DNA from: Roseburia sp.
Lineage (GTDB): Bacteria > Bacillota > Clostridia > Lachnospirales > Lachnospiraceae
Reading direction: 5' to 3'
DNA: 8,671 nt
NCBI GenBank assembly: GCA_030844625.1
Contig: JAUUNJ010000090.1
Location: 1 to 8,671 of the forward strand
The translations under genes and the position numbers were made by a program. How positions within the stretch are numbered: the stretch's first letter is position 1; the number at the start of each line of letters is the position of its first letter. Shown here in pieces: positions 697 through 8,502 of the stretch. The notes beneath the pieces are model-generated. The model was given only the letters and a program-made list of their open reading frames with translations. It made no database searches and had not been told where the DNA came from.

Positions 697-723
697 TTGA
701 CAAATATTTTGATAGGGTATAAC
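697..723 (+). promoter_or_regulatory. sigma-A-type promoter upstream of the ABC-exporter leader
   Basis: A perfect TTGACA (697-702) is followed after 15 nt by TATAAC (718-723). The spacer is short, and TAACCT at 720-725 would be the 17-nt alternative. Predicted transcription start is near 730, giving a leader of about 240 nt before the first exporter gene, which is long for an unregulated transcript. Confidence 0.6.
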
Positions 724-770
724 CTAGTAAAAGTACAACTATAAAAAATCAGGAAAAGGAGGTAAATAAA

Positions 771-854
771 ATGAGAATTAATAATAATTTAAACGTTAAC
801 AATCAATTAAATAGAAAATCATTGGAAAATGCCTCCGTTCTATATAAGAATTGA
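771..854 (+). CDS. putative 27-aa leader peptide of the ABC exporter operon
   Basis: A short reading frame starts ATG at 771 behind a very strong ribosome binding site (AAAAGGAGG, 755-763, 7 nt spacing) and ends TGA at 852-854. The peptide begins MRINNNLNVNNQLNRK and is rich in Asn (9 of 27). It lies between the promoter at 697 and the intrinsic terminator at 905, with the exporter genes beyond. This is the arrangement of leader peptides whose translation controls read-through, known for bmrB ahead of the heterodimeric exporter bmrCD in Bacillus subtilis. The ribosome binding site and position argue for translation; the control role is inference. Alternatives are a small functional peptide, or the remnant of a larger gene (the start has a slight flagellin N-terminus flavour, not convincing). 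Confidence 0.6.
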   Translation: MRINNNLNVNNQLNRKSLENASVLYKN

Positions 855-918
855 TATCCGGAATTCGATTTATATTAAGAATTGATATATCATTATGTAA
901 CATGCCGTGGCAGTTTCT
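824..918 (+). promoter_or_regulatory. possible antiterminator pairing (leader codons with terminator 5' arm and loop)
   Basis: By eye, GGAAAATGCC (824-833, inside the leader peptide frame) can pair with GGCAGTTTCT (909-918) at nine of ten positions, counting one G-U pair and with a single A-G mismatch. The downstream partner includes three bases of the terminator's 5' arm and all of its loop, so the two structures exclude each other. A ribosome translating through codons 18-21 would mask the upstream partner. Found by inspection without folding energies, so this is tentative. Confidence 0.3.
845..888 (+). repeat. 13-bp direct repeat pair in the exporter leader
   Basis: TAAGAATTGATAT occurs at 845-857, across the leader peptide's stop codon, and again exactly at 876-888. 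Between them, AATTC (862-866) is complementary to GAATT in both copies (848-852 and 879-883), so the middle segment can pair with either one. It may be part of a conformational switch, or simply an AT-rich duplication. Confidence 0.6.
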
Positions 919-932
919 GTCACGGTTTTTTT
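905..932 (+). terminator. intrinsic terminator / attenuator ahead of ABC exporter genes
   Basis: CCGTGGC (905-911) pairs with GTCACGG (919-925), seven pairs including one G-U, around a 7-nt loop, followed at once by seven T residues (926-932). It lies on the + strand after the leader peptide and 37 nt before the first exporter start. No full gene precedes it on this transcript, so it is best read as an attenuator that decides whether the exporter genes are transcribed. Confidence 0.75.
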
Positions 933-968
933 ATGCATTTAAATAGTAGTTTTAAGAGGGAGGAAAAA

Positions 969-2776: not shown

Positions 2777-4552
2777 GTGGCTTATAATTCATTTAAAGAA
2801 GACGAACAAAGTGCAGAAAAAAGTAAACTTCAGACACTAAAAAGATTGTTTTCCTACCTGTTAAAATACAAATGGACAATATTGCTGGTACTGTTACTGA
2901 TGGGATACTGCGTAGCAGTCAGTCTGGCAAATCCTCTGATTATAGAATCGGCAATTGACGATTATATAGGCAAAGGGAACTGGGTTGGGTTGTGCAAATT
3001 ACTGGCAGTGGCTTTGATATTAAATCTTCTGGTAACTTTCGCCATAAAAAGCCGGATGTACATTATGGCAAAAATGTGTAACAGAATTCTTCTTACAATC
3101 AGACAGGAATTGTATACCCATATTCAGAAACTGGGATTTAAATTTTTTGACAGTAGACCTACCGGAAAAATATTGTCAAGAATCATTGGCGATATTAATT
3201 CGTTAAAGGATGTATTGTCTAATTGCGTAACAACATTGATTCCCGATTTCATTACGGTAGCAGCAGTTGTAACAATCATGTTTGCCAAGAATCCTAAACT
3301 GGCGTTAGCAGCATTAATCAGTACGCCGCTGATGGCTTTTGCTACTTCCTATATTGAAATAAAGGCCCATCCCAGATGGCAGAAATTTCGTAAAAAATCT
3401 TCCAATTTAAATGCTTTTCTTCATGAAGATATGTCGGGAATGAAAATCATACATAGTTTTACTGCGGAAAAAGAGACCGAAGAAACTTTTGATGAGCTTG
3501 TTAAGGAACATAAGCAGTCATTCAGGGAAGCAGTTAGAATGAGTGATTGCTTTGGTTCGGCAATTGATTTTTCCTGGGGACTGGGCTGTATTTCTCTGTA
3601 TTTTGTGGGAATCGTTATTCTCAAGGACGAACATATTTCGGTTGGTACCTTTCTGGCATTTGGAACTTATATTAATATGTTTTGGCAGCCAATCAATAAT
3701 TTAAGTAATTTCTATAATCAGATTATAACAAATATAGCAGGGGCAGAAAGAATTTTTGAAATTCTGGATACGGAGCCTGAAATTGCAGATGGGAAAACGG
3801 TGGCAGAATTACCTGAACTGAAGGGTCAGGTGGTGTTTGATCATGTTACTTTTGGATACGATGAAAAAATTGTATTAAATAATGTAAGTTTTAACATTCA
3901 ACCGGGAGAAACCATTGCACTGGTCGGTTCTACAGGAGCAGGAAAGTCTACCATTATAAATTTAATCAGCAGGTTTTATGATGCAAATAAGGGAAATGTA
4001 CTTCTTGACGGACATAATGTGAAGGATGTAACCATTGAAAGTCTCCGCAGACAGGTGGGAACAATGACACAGGAGAATTTTATTTTTTCGGGAACAATTA
4101 AAGAAAATATTCGTTATGGTAAGCTGGATGCCACAGATGAGGAAATTATAGAAGCCGCAAAAGCTGTGAATGCTCATGATTTTATTATGAAAATGGAAAA
4201 CGGATATGATACGGTGCTTTCAGAGCGGGGAGGAGAATTGTCTATTGGACAGAAGCAACTTCTGGCACTGGCACGAACTATGGTGTCAAAACCGAAAATA
4301 TTAATTCTTGACGAGGCGACTTCCAGTATAGATACAAAGACGGAACTTATGGTGCAGGAAGGTATAGAACAGTTATTGAAAGGAAGAACTTCTTTTGTAA
4401 TTGCACACAGGCTTTCTACAATCAAGAAAGCAGACAGAATTTTTGTGATAGAAGATGGAGAAATCATTGAAGAGGGAAATCATATACACCTTTTAGAGAC
4501 AAAAGGAGCTTATTATAATCTGTATATGGCACAATTTAGAATATTTGAGTAA
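2777..4552 (+). CDS. ABC exporter half-transporter, subunit with catalytic Glu and degenerate signature (heterodimer partner 2)
   Basis: A 591-residue half-transporter: a six-helix-type membrane domain (first clear segment WTILLVLLLMGYCVAVSLA, about residues 35-53) followed by an ATPase domain. Walker A is GSTGAGKST (384-392), the Q-loop Gln is 432, Walker B is ILILDEATSS with D512 and catalytic E513, and the H-loop His is 544. The signature reads LSIGQ (488-492): Ile replaces the first Gly. In heterodimeric exporters such as TM287/288 and BmrCD each ATP site uses Walker motifs of one subunit and the signature of the other. Here the competent site would join E513 to the partner's LSGGQ, and the degenerate site would join the partner's D495 to this LSIGQ. 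The start is GTG at 2777, with AAAGGAGG (2762-2769) placed inside the end of the upstream gene, so translation is probably coupled. Confidence 0.93.
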   Translation: MAYNSFKEDEQSAEKSKLQTLKRLFSYLLKYKWTILLVLLLMGYCVAVSLANPLIIESAIDDYIGKGNWVGLCKLLAVALILNLLVTFAIKSRMYIMAKMCNRILLTIRQELYTHIQKLGFKFFDSRPTGKILSRIIGDINSLKDVLSNCVTTLIPDFITVAAVVTIMFAKNPKLALAALISTPLMAFATSYIEIKAHPRWQKFRKKSSNLNAFLHEDMSGMKIIHSFTAEKETEETFDELVKEHKQSFREAVRMSDCFGSAIDFSWGLGCISLYFVGIVILKDEHISVGTFLAFGTYINMFWQPINNLSNFYNQIITNIAGAERIFEILDTEPEIADGKTVAELPELKGQVVFDHVTFGYDEKIVLNNVSFNIQPGETIALVGSTGAGKSTIINLISRFYDANKGNVLLDGHNVKDVTIESLRRQVGTMTQENFIFSGTIKENIRYGKLDATDEEIIEAAKAVNAHDFIMKMENGYDTVLSERGGELSIGQKQLLALARTMVSKPKILILDEATSSIDTKTELMVQEGIEQLLKGRTSFVIAHRLSTIKKADRIFVIEDGEIIEEGNHIHLLETKGAYYNLYMAQFRIFE

Positions 4553-4609: not shown

Positions 4610-4638
4610 TTGACAAAAAAGTATGGTTATAGTATCAT
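4610..4638 (+). promoter_or_regulatory. strong promoter of tRNA-Gly
   Basis: TTGACA (4610-4615), a 17-nt spacer, then TATCAT (4633-4638): one mismatch from the full sigma-A consensus. The predicted start is about 4645, some 26 nt before the mature tRNA, which fits a stable-RNA promoter. Confidence 0.8.
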
Positions 4639-4670: not shown

Positions 4671-4742
4671 GCGCGAGTGGCTCAGTGGTGGAGCACCTCC
4701 TTGCCAAGGAGGGGGCCGCGGGTTCGATCCCCGTCTCGCGCT
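4671..4742 (+). tRNA. tRNA-Gly (anticodon GCC)
   Basis: A complete cloverleaf can be drawn. The acceptor stem is GCGCGAG (4671-4677) with CTCGCGC (4735-4741). The D stem is GCTC/GAGC (4680-4683, 4691-4694). The anticodon stem is CCTCC/GGAGG (4696-4700, 4708-4712) around TTGCCAA, placing GCC at 4703-4705. The variable loop is five bases and the T stem is GCGGG/CCCGT with loop TTCGATC. The discriminator base is T and no CCA is encoded. A run of T residues follows immediately (4742-4747) and may serve as terminator with the tRNA fold. The 3' end is also the apparent integration target of the island to the right. Confidence 0.97.
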
Positions 4743-7877: not shown

Positions 7878-7901
7878 ATAAATAAATTTTTGGAGGAATA
7901 C

Positions 7902-8321
7902 ATGGAATTGAATGACACAAATAATAAATATATTACCTTCAAATTGGGGGATATGACATTTGAATATGACGAAAAGAAAAATCAAAAGAATATTGAAAAG
8001 CATGGTATTTCCTTCAAAAGTGCTGCGCGTGTATTTTTTGACTATGATAGAATTGAATTTTATGACGAAGAAAATAGCCAGGAGGAAGAAAGATATGATA
8101 CTATAGGAGATACTACAGCAGGAAATATTGAATTGTTTGATAATGGAACTGTTATTGGAAACGTAAGAGAAATAACAGGTGGAAAAGAGGACGTTCTTTT
8201 TGTAGTATATACCGAAAGAATTAAAAAGAATGATGCCGGGAAAGATACTGATATAACAAGGTTGATTTCAGCCAGATATGCAACCAATTTTGAAAGGGGG
8301 TTATATTATGGTAAATATTAG
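7902..8321 (+). CDS. brnT: BrnT-family type II toxin, enlarged (139 aa)
   Basis: Recognised as BrnT-like from FEYDEKKNQKNIEKHGISF (20-38), the F-D-Y-D...EEERYDTIG segment (46-69), LFVVYTER (99-106) and the C-terminal ITRLISARYATNFER (118-132). BrnT toxins have a RelE-like ribonuclease fold and stop translation. Typical members are about 90-100 residues; this one has extra sequence at about 70-97 (between TIG and DVLFVVYTER) and at about 107-117, plus an N-terminal extension. The start at 7902 is chosen because GGAGG (7892-7896) lies 5 nt upstream; the in-frame TTG at 7890 overlaps that site. The next gene starts 14 nt before the toxin's stop, the toxin-first order typical of brnTA. It probably stabilises the island (inference). 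Confidence 0.82.
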   Translation: MELNDTNNKYITFKLGDMTFEYDEKKNQKNIEKHGISFKSAARVFFDYDRIEFYDEENSQEEERYDTIGDTTAGNIELFDNGTVIGNVREITGGKEDVLFVVYTERIKKNDAGKDTDITRLISARYATNFERGLYYGKY

Positions 8322-8502
8322 TGAAATGACACCACAATTAGCTAAGGACTTAAAGTTTTCTGAGCAGGAGATACAAGAATTAGAAAACGCCAAAAAGATG
8401 GAGATTACTTTTGATGAAGATTGTCCCGAAACAACACCTGAACGGGCATTAAAGTTTAGAAGAGTTAATCCATCACGCAGGGATTCATCAAAGAGAGCCT
8501 GA
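8308..8502 (+). CDS. putative short antitoxin partner of the BrnT-like toxin, 64 aa
   Basis: A 64-residue protein overlapping the toxin gene by 14 nt, with GAAAGGGGG (8292-8300) placed 7 nt before the ATG at 8308. It has an acidic helical middle (FSEQEIQELENAKKMEITFDEDCPE, about residues 17-41) and a basic tail (KFRRVNPSRRDSSKRA, 49-64). Position and size fit the antitoxin of the pair. Unlike classical BrnA it shows no obvious ribbon-helix-helix DNA-binding region, only the basic tail, so how it would repress the promoter is unclear. From memory, ITFDEDCPE-type short proteins accompany toxins in Clostridia; this is not verified. The longer frame from 8278 has no ribosome binding site. Confidence 0.68.
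   Translation: MVNISEMTPQLAKDLKFSEQEIQELENAKKMEITFDEDCPETTPERALKFRRVNPSRRDSSKRA

Follow-up and report, generated by a model that had tools for sequence, protein, structure and literature searches.

The leader region and the exporter genes

The stretch of DNA analysed here (the window, 8,671 nucleotides of a Roseburia sp. contig) carries two adjacent ABC exporter genes, which are preceded by a likely promoter, a small leader frame and an intrinsic terminator. Read from the sequence and its open reading frames, and for region 2 from duplex predictions and co-variation, the features are:

697-723, + strand: likely promoter, with TTGACA at 697-702, TATAAC at 718-723 and a 15-nt spacer
758-765, + strand: region 1, Shine-Dalgarno (SD) sequence of the leader, GGAGGTAA
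771-854, + strand: leader frame of 27 codons, MRINNNLNVNNQLNRKSLENASVLYKN, with ATG at 771 and the stop codon at 852-854
824-838, + strand: region 2, with the predicted anti-SD ATGCCTCC at 829-836
904-918, + strand: region 3, left arm and loop of the terminator, with an SD-like copy GGCAGTTTC in 909-917
904-932, + strand: intrinsic terminator, with a 10-pair stem (904-913/917-926) and T residues at 926-932
956-963, + strand: SD sequence of the first exporter gene, GAGGGAGG
969-2774, + strand: ABC exporter subunit 1, TTG start, PF00664 and PF00005, putative Walker B LVLDD and signature LSGGQ
2777-4552, + strand: ABC exporter subunit 2, GTG start, PF00664 and PF00005, putative Walker B LILDE and signature LSIGQ

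Both exporter genes encode ABC_membrane and ABC_tran domains (Pfam), and their translations form an asymmetric pair, with Asp and LSGGQ in subunit 1 and Glu and LSIGQ in subunit 2, where we take LVLDD and LILDE to be the Walker B motifs and LSGGQ and LSIGQ to be the signature motifs. In known heterodimeric exporters one nucleotide site is degenerate, and since one subunit has Asp and the other Glu, the same should hold here. The heterodimeric exporter proposed in a preliminary description of this DNA is thus upheld as a pair predicted from adjacent, asymmetric subunits. By sequence, the highest-scoring relatives of solved structure are ABCB1-type transporters; the bacterial ones include TM_0288 and YheH, the latter being the BmrD subunit of B. 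subtilis. Directly after the exporter genes lies a tRNA-Gly (GCC) at 4671-4742, with TTGACA-17-TATCAT at 4610-4638, and at 7890-8502 a BrnT-like toxin gene (PF04365) overlaps a 74-codon frame without family match, which may encode an antitoxin.

The elements that the preliminary description had named upstream of these genes, i.e., a TTGACA promoter element, a 27-codon frame with a strong ribosome-binding site and a hairpin followed by seven T residues, were all found again. TATAAC is the best -10 element for the promoter, which is absent from the list of a consensus scan because that scan wants a spacer of 16-18 nt, and the leader SD sits within AGGAAAAGGAGGTAAATAAAATG. The terminator hairpin (904-926) reads GCCGTGGCAG-TTT-CTGTCACGGT with the seven T at 926-932, lies between the leader frame and the exporter gene and is the first-listed of eight terminator-like sites in the window, where shuffles expect 4.4. 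A TTG start for the first exporter gene, previously placed 37 nt past the terminator, is indeed present at 969, its distance being corrected to 36 nt after the last T. The earlier account missed the stretch 829-836, which links the ribosome-binding site to the terminator. A 13-nt direct repeat, TAAGAATTGATAT, occurs at 845-857 and 876-888 (spacing 31), its first copy containing the leader stop codon.

Occurrence of the leader among relatives

The best 80 of 340 exporter relatives from a scan of genome contigs (L001-L080, mostly Lachnospiraceae) were examined, and by eye a recurrent layout is visible, consisting of AAAGGAGGTAA, an ATG, a frame several tens of codons long with AAATTACCTCC close to its end, and a terminator whose left arm includes GGTAATTT. 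Of 81 loci, two scripts with hand-set thresholds and different terminator rules assigned a leader with terminator to 73 and 75, respectively; L030 was picked falsely by both and L058 by the first, and the second mis-picked the leader of L046. Adding to the 71 true picks of the first script five loci with terminators from the second (L005, L009, L016, L071 and L075), leader and terminator of the window's layout are present in 76 of the 80 judgeable sites among the window and L001-L080, L044 being cut by a contig end and outside these 80; no leader of such layout was found in the other four (L002, L030, L034 and L058). Frame and hairpin are hence both kept among relatives, a point on which the preliminary description had made its reading depend. 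The terminator lies 16 to 300 nt from the gene in the picked loci and overlaps the end of the leader frame in two of 73 picks (L029 and L043). L002, with an 83%-identical exporter but no leader upstream of position 3001, seems to follow the terminator hairpin of another gene and is perhaps a natural case of lost control.

Beyond this set, an order-level sample, in which 57 of 146 genomes matched at E<=1e-100, gave 28 new loci (L085-L112, 37-56% identity). The leader layout is found in 17 of them, namely 16 with the leader start in view, L093 being the least typical, plus L101, which has anti-SD and terminator and entered no test because its contig starts inside the leader. It is absent in the other 11 (L089-L091, L097, L105, L106 and L108-L112), and in L089-L091 a different 72-codon frame, similar in all three, stands in its place. 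A phylum-level sample (12 of 299 genomes at E<=1e-150) added 10 new loci, six of which show the layout (L114-L119); it is absent in L120, L121 and L123, and the upstream sequence of L122 is too short. Upstream of L120 and L121, TTGACA and two hairpins around CATGG are kept and no strong-SD leader frame was found, so that these regions are perhaps decayed attenuators. In L114-L116, L118, L119, L095 and L098-L100, the first hairpin is followed by another terminator-like one around CATGG, and tandem attenuators are possible there.

A strict pattern search for the element elsewhere matched in one of 397 genomes (G006, the genome of L074), with one hit in the reversed control, and a second pattern matched in one of 392 genomes, with six reversed hits; the patterns recover 12 and 32 of the 75 picks of the second script and none of 14 order-level ones. 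These searches thus neither show nor exclude a use before other genes. In Rfam, the leader had no match at gathering level or at E<=1 and seven relatives had none at gathering level, and this absence of curated-model matches rules out an Rfam family (riboswitch, T-box or leader) for the element.

One RNA stretch with two co-varying partners

By its sequence, the stretch 829-836 is complementary to two other segments, the leader SD (758-765) and the left terminator arm (904-918). With the SD, seven of eight positions pair in the window, one of them as G-U (-12.2 kcal/mol; shuffle p 0.008). The antiterminator, i.e., the pairing of region 2 with region 3, is predicted to involve positions 824-828, 830-833, 835 and 837-838 of region 2, with a duplex energy of -11.5 kcal/mol in the window. 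Across 73 loci, a set that still includes the false picks L030 and L058, the SD:anti-SD pairing is better than in shuffled frames at p<=0.05 in 58 and at p<=0.01 in 39. The antiterminator alone reaches p<=0.05 against shuffles of the whole frame in 15/73 loci (p 0.56 in the window), and in 54/73 its best site shares at least 4 nt with the SD partner.

Stronger evidence comes from swap tests, in which own and other loci's terminator arms were placed on a locus's own anti-SD block, the block being chosen by SD pairing only. In the first set, with 43 clusters at 70% identity, own arms gave -13.49 and swapped arms -11.56, a value as good as that of the own arms being reached in 0/20,000 permutations; coarser clustering gave 12/20,000 with 19 clusters (60%) and 5839/20,000 with four (55%), where the test has no power left. 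With distant loci included, the values were -13.43 vs. -10.43 for 55 clusters, -13.20 vs. -9.95 for 41 clusters, -13.23 vs. -9.11 for the order-level group alone (n=12) and -13.13 vs. -9.61 (sd 0.38) for 95 loci in 47 clusters, each at 0/20,000. When the SD was tested against own and swapped leader frames, the first set gave 16, 389 and 9948 of 20,000 at 43, 19 and four clusters, a weaker result because nearly all SDs in that set are alike; after the addition of distant loci it was 0/20,000, both in the order-level group (-15.42 vs. -12.11) and in 47 clusters (-14.07 vs. -11.81, sd 0.31). L030, which is a piece of an upstream gene, and L046 with its mis-picked leader were dropped from the swap, masking and footprint tests, the near copies L087 and L100 were left out of the order-level swap group, and L094 and L104 are only in the 95-locus set.

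The joint changes can be followed in the letters themselves. Most loci have GGAGGTAA/TTACCTCC/GGTAATTT as SD, anti-SD and arm, which is changed jointly to CGAGGTAA/TTACCTCG/GGTAAAGG in L086; L115 has GGAGGTAGGG with GATAGCCCTGCC and GGGCTAT (pair ATAGCCC/GGGCTAT), and further pairs are CTTTACC/GGTAAAG in L087, AATAGCCC/GGGTTATT in L104 and TCTCC/GGAGA in L117. The window itself pairs TGCC with GGCA, the corresponding pair in most relatives being TACC and GGTA, and at position 6 of the SD:anti-SD helix C-G replaces T-A in seven of 55 clusters. Counted in a fixed register, which understates the shifted helices of distant loci, the own arm forms 7/8 pairs in 38/55 clusters, vs. a swapped fraction of 0.48. 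Taken alone, the antiterminator of the window is weak: 162 of 2000 block shuffles are as good, eight of 72 other arms suit its block equally well, as do 26 of 72 other blocks its arm, and the case therefore rests on the family. Across the family, co-variation supports an antiterminator mutually exclusive with the terminator, and an anti-antiterminator overlapping the antiterminator is present in the form of the SD:anti-SD pairing.

Region 2 of the window is also predicted to pair with the stretch around the exporter SD (950-968), and it does so as well as with the leader SD, at -12.2 kcal/mol each. This could speak for translation attenuation, in which the anti-SD mainly hides the exporter SD and the terminator is secondary; in cplR, according to excerpts of the published account, the terminator arm hides the SD of the gene and premature termination is inessential for induction (PMC10201436). 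Nevertheless, the anti-SD co-varies with the terminator arm and the leader SD, and the distance from terminator to gene is highly variable, as described above, so that we regard translation attenuation as the main mechanism as quite unlikely. Since the second pairing exists, a translational layer as in cplR is possible on top of transcription attenuation.

An open frame over a drifting peptide

In 87 of 88 loci the leader frame runs through the whole anti-SD without a stop codon; frames +1 and +2 do so in five of 88 each, with 14.5 expected from shuffles. The exception is L072, where the best SD partner lies elsewhere. For this test the start was chosen by SD strength alone and L030 was left out; the 88 loci were picked with leaders of 12-75 codons, and without that condition the start is unchanged in 87/88. 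The loci are related and not independent, the contrast between frames being drawn within each locus. Together with the strong SD, the open frame argues at the sequence level for translation of the leader, and in view of the difference to the other frames we reject a chance frame.

Which peptide is encoded appears to matter little. In the picked loci the leader frame has 24-61 codons, compared with 27 in the window, and each of the three reading frames is used across the anti-SD (by 17, 49 and 5 of 71 loci measured, with L058, a false pick, and L069, whose anchor is doubtful, among them). The pN/pS of the leader is 0.71 in 12 equal-length pairs of 16 tried. Together with the open frame, this indicates that the stretch probably continues to be translated although its peptide can vary almost at will, so that RNA and ribosome position would count rather than the peptide. 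The Asn-rich leader peptide emphasized in the preliminary description is accordingly not conserved as such, and a conserved arrest peptide was rejected on the basis of the three-frame reading and the pN/pS. The peptide of the window starts with MRINNNL (771-791), which resembles flagellin N-termini, a likeness that is probably due to chance in AT-rich sequence.

An ordinary intergenic terminator next to a chance small frame could account for the four of 80 judged relatives without a leader and for the lack of other users of the motif in the pattern searches (1/397 and 1/392 genomes, at a sensitivity of 12 and 32 of 75). It would need the co-variation to be an artefact and is contradicted by all co-variation and open-frame results, which makes it extremely improbable.

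Folding with a ribosome footprint

Folds were calculated at equilibrium (partition function) with an assumed ribosome footprint of -15 to +16. For RNA reaching to the terminator loop with a free SD, the 73 loci gave 9.6 pairs between SD and anti-SD and 0.9 in the antiterminator; masking of the SD brought the latter to 7.0 pairs, the antiterminator rising in 60/73 loci and falling in three. The full switch was seen in 20 of 26 loci vs. six of 390 shuffled leaders, the 26 being drawn from the 73 as one representative of each 60% cluster together with eight of the largest.

When the footprint was moved along the frame, at least four antiterminator pairs formed in 12 of 87 loci without a ribosome, in 61 with a ribosome on each of codons 1, 2 and 3, in 38 at codon 4, 27 at codon 5, 17 at codon 7 and 15 at codon 10, in 17, 18 and 9 at codons 13, 16 and 19, and in five with a ribosome on the last codon, where the SD:anti-SD pairing is present in 57/87. 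Even with a ribosome on codon 1, 26 of the 87 loci stay below four antiterminator pairs. In the window, for which the values come from a scan of 31 hand-chosen loci while the counts come from all 87, there are 4.0 antiterminator pairs at codon 1, 2.9 at codon 3 and 0.1 at codons 5-15. Among eight late loci, the switch is clear in L116 and L119 and partial in L094 and L115, which also form the antiterminator with a ribosome at codon 10, L115 additionally with none; in L118 and L104 it forms irrespective of a ribosome, and in L114, where the script took the downstream hairpin, and in L117 it hardly forms.

These profiles bear on peptide-specific arrest, in which a drug-bound ribosome would stall at a defined codon through its nascent peptide, as in erm- or mef-type leaders, and thereby free the antiterminator. 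Such leaders are known, e.g., Mef(E)L with MTASMRLR (excerpted in PMC4335068), and a frame of several tens of codons is conserved in the picked loci. Yet neither the length nor the sequence of the peptides is constant, all three frames are used to read the conserved RNA stretch, the pN/pS is 0.71, and stalling within the frame is predicted to free the antiterminator in a minority of loci, as the counts at codons 5 and 10 indicate. Peptide-specific arrest is thus a doubtful explanation with little probability.

Proposed switch

The folding results lead to a model in which an untranslated or freely translated leader gives termination and a ribosome held at the first codons gives read-through. 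Without a ribosome, or with one in the middle of the frame, the SD:anti-SD pairing would form in most loci and leave the terminator free (off), and few loci would form the antiterminator once the ribosome has reached the last codon (off). A ribosome on codons 1-3 would mask the SD and release 824-838, so that in most loci the antiterminator could form (on). As the leader SD and the stop signal compete for one RNA stretch, a ribosome held at the start is predicted to permit read-through. We therefore consider it quite probable that 824-838 serves both the leader SD and the terminator arm in a three-way transcription attenuator, and that a start-held ribosome turns the exporter on. At the level of sequence and comparison, the three parts, their co-variation and the open frame over a drifting peptide are established. 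The ribosome-mediated attenuation suggested in the preliminary description thereby gains substance, its logic being that of bmrB-bmrCD and a co-varying antiterminator and anti-antiterminator being present.

Which signal holds the ribosome is inferred from known systems. By analogy to these, it would be an antibiotic that arrests ribosomes during initiation or directly thereafter, with the exporter presumably removing the drug; lincosamides and pleuromutilins appear as the first candidates. The same RNA switch could alternatively read ribosome loading as a physiological signal (initiation capacity, initiator tRNA or its formylation, growth rate) instead of antibiotics. The dependence of the switch on occupancy of the start site in the folds would suit such a signal, and a similar idea has been proposed for the fthC uORF motif (excerpts of PMC11109978). 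On the other hand, the genes behind the leader belong to a superfamily of drug exporters, and a similar exporter of B. subtilis is under attenuation control that responds to ribosome-targeting drugs (excerpts of PMC4191407), for which reasons we deem a purely physiological signal rather unlikely.

A broader proposition, to which we give about even chances, is that clostridial attenuators of this kind have a terminator that imitates the leader SD, with the anti-SD picking either the site or its copy, and thus constitute a peptide-independent initiation sensor for whole drug classes. Because of the SD copy, the terminator would in this case directly read a ribosome parked at the start site. If true, many Clostridia, apparently with gut species among them, would carry an inducible exporter with this switch, which would respond to any drug trapping ribosomes at the start of the frame without needing a drug-specific arrest peptide. 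It would also account for the conserved SD-like sequence in the left arm of the terminator and amount to a general design principle of SD, anti-SD and SD copy, for which the regions upstream of other genes could be screened. In addition, it would provide a clean test of initiation sensing vs. codon-specific stalling.

Comparison with known systems

Among the best matches by title or start of abstract in the open-licence literature, no such leader before clostridial ABC exporters was found, and none of that literature was found to combine Lachnospiraceae, transcription attenuation and a leader peptide. The available excerpts of PMC11109978 and PMC8632094 name no such motif, and PMC2965389, likewise in excerpt, describes ABC-leaders, one of them upstream of a multidrug export operon in lactobacilli. 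Published texts compared in the following are represented by excerpts as well.

In patAB of Streptococcus pneumoniae, terminator, antiterminator and anti-antiterminator are predicted before an ABC exporter pair as they are here, whereas the excerpted text mentions no leader peptide and cites induction by fluoroquinolones or DNA damage (PMC4319486). The mef(E)/mel leader shares with the present one a leader peptide with an AGGAGG site, an intrinsic terminator and an efflux system that is antibiotic-inducible (PMC4335068), induction here being inferred; it differs by its arrest-type peptide MTASMRLR, common to msr and erm leaders, and by another pairing scheme (PMC4335068).

Closer in mechanism are vmlR, cplR and lmo0919, where stalling on a uORF prevents the anti-antiterminator and thus leads to the antiterminator (PMC9226507, PMC10201436). 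According to its figure legend, the alignment of cplR and lmo0919 also marks an anti-SD element (PMC9226507, PMC10201436). In contrast to the present leader with its 27 codons, and 24-61 in relatives, the uORFs of vmlR and cplR have three codons (MIN and MRI), and the controlled genes of the three systems encode ribosome-protecting ABCF proteins rather than proteins with ABC_membrane and ABC_tran domains. Moreover, the excerpts describe the SD of the vmlR uORF as single-stranded and the identity of that uORF as important (PMC9226507, PMC10201436), while the frame described here crosses the anti-SD, in contrast to vmlR and cplR, and is nearly free in sequence.

For bmrB-bmrCD, the likeness extends to the genes: a small translated leader frame precedes a heterodimeric ABC exporter, the ribosome is the sensor, and terminator, antiterminator and anti-antiterminator occur in both (PMC4191407), translation, sensing by the ribosome and the joining of the two exporter proteins being predictions in our case. 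The terminator lies within nt 60-162 of bmrB (PMC4191407) and hence inside the leader frame, whereas the present frame ends at 852-854 and the hairpin begins at 904. The role of the predicted anti-antiterminator of bmrB is left unclear in the excerpted text (PMC4191407); here, as a further difference, the anti-antiterminator consists of the pairing of the leader's own SD. In our best reading, the element attenuates transcription by way of the ribosome and responds to ribosomes that are held at initiation, which makes it an analogue of bmrB-bmrCD, vmlR and cplR with a different layout.
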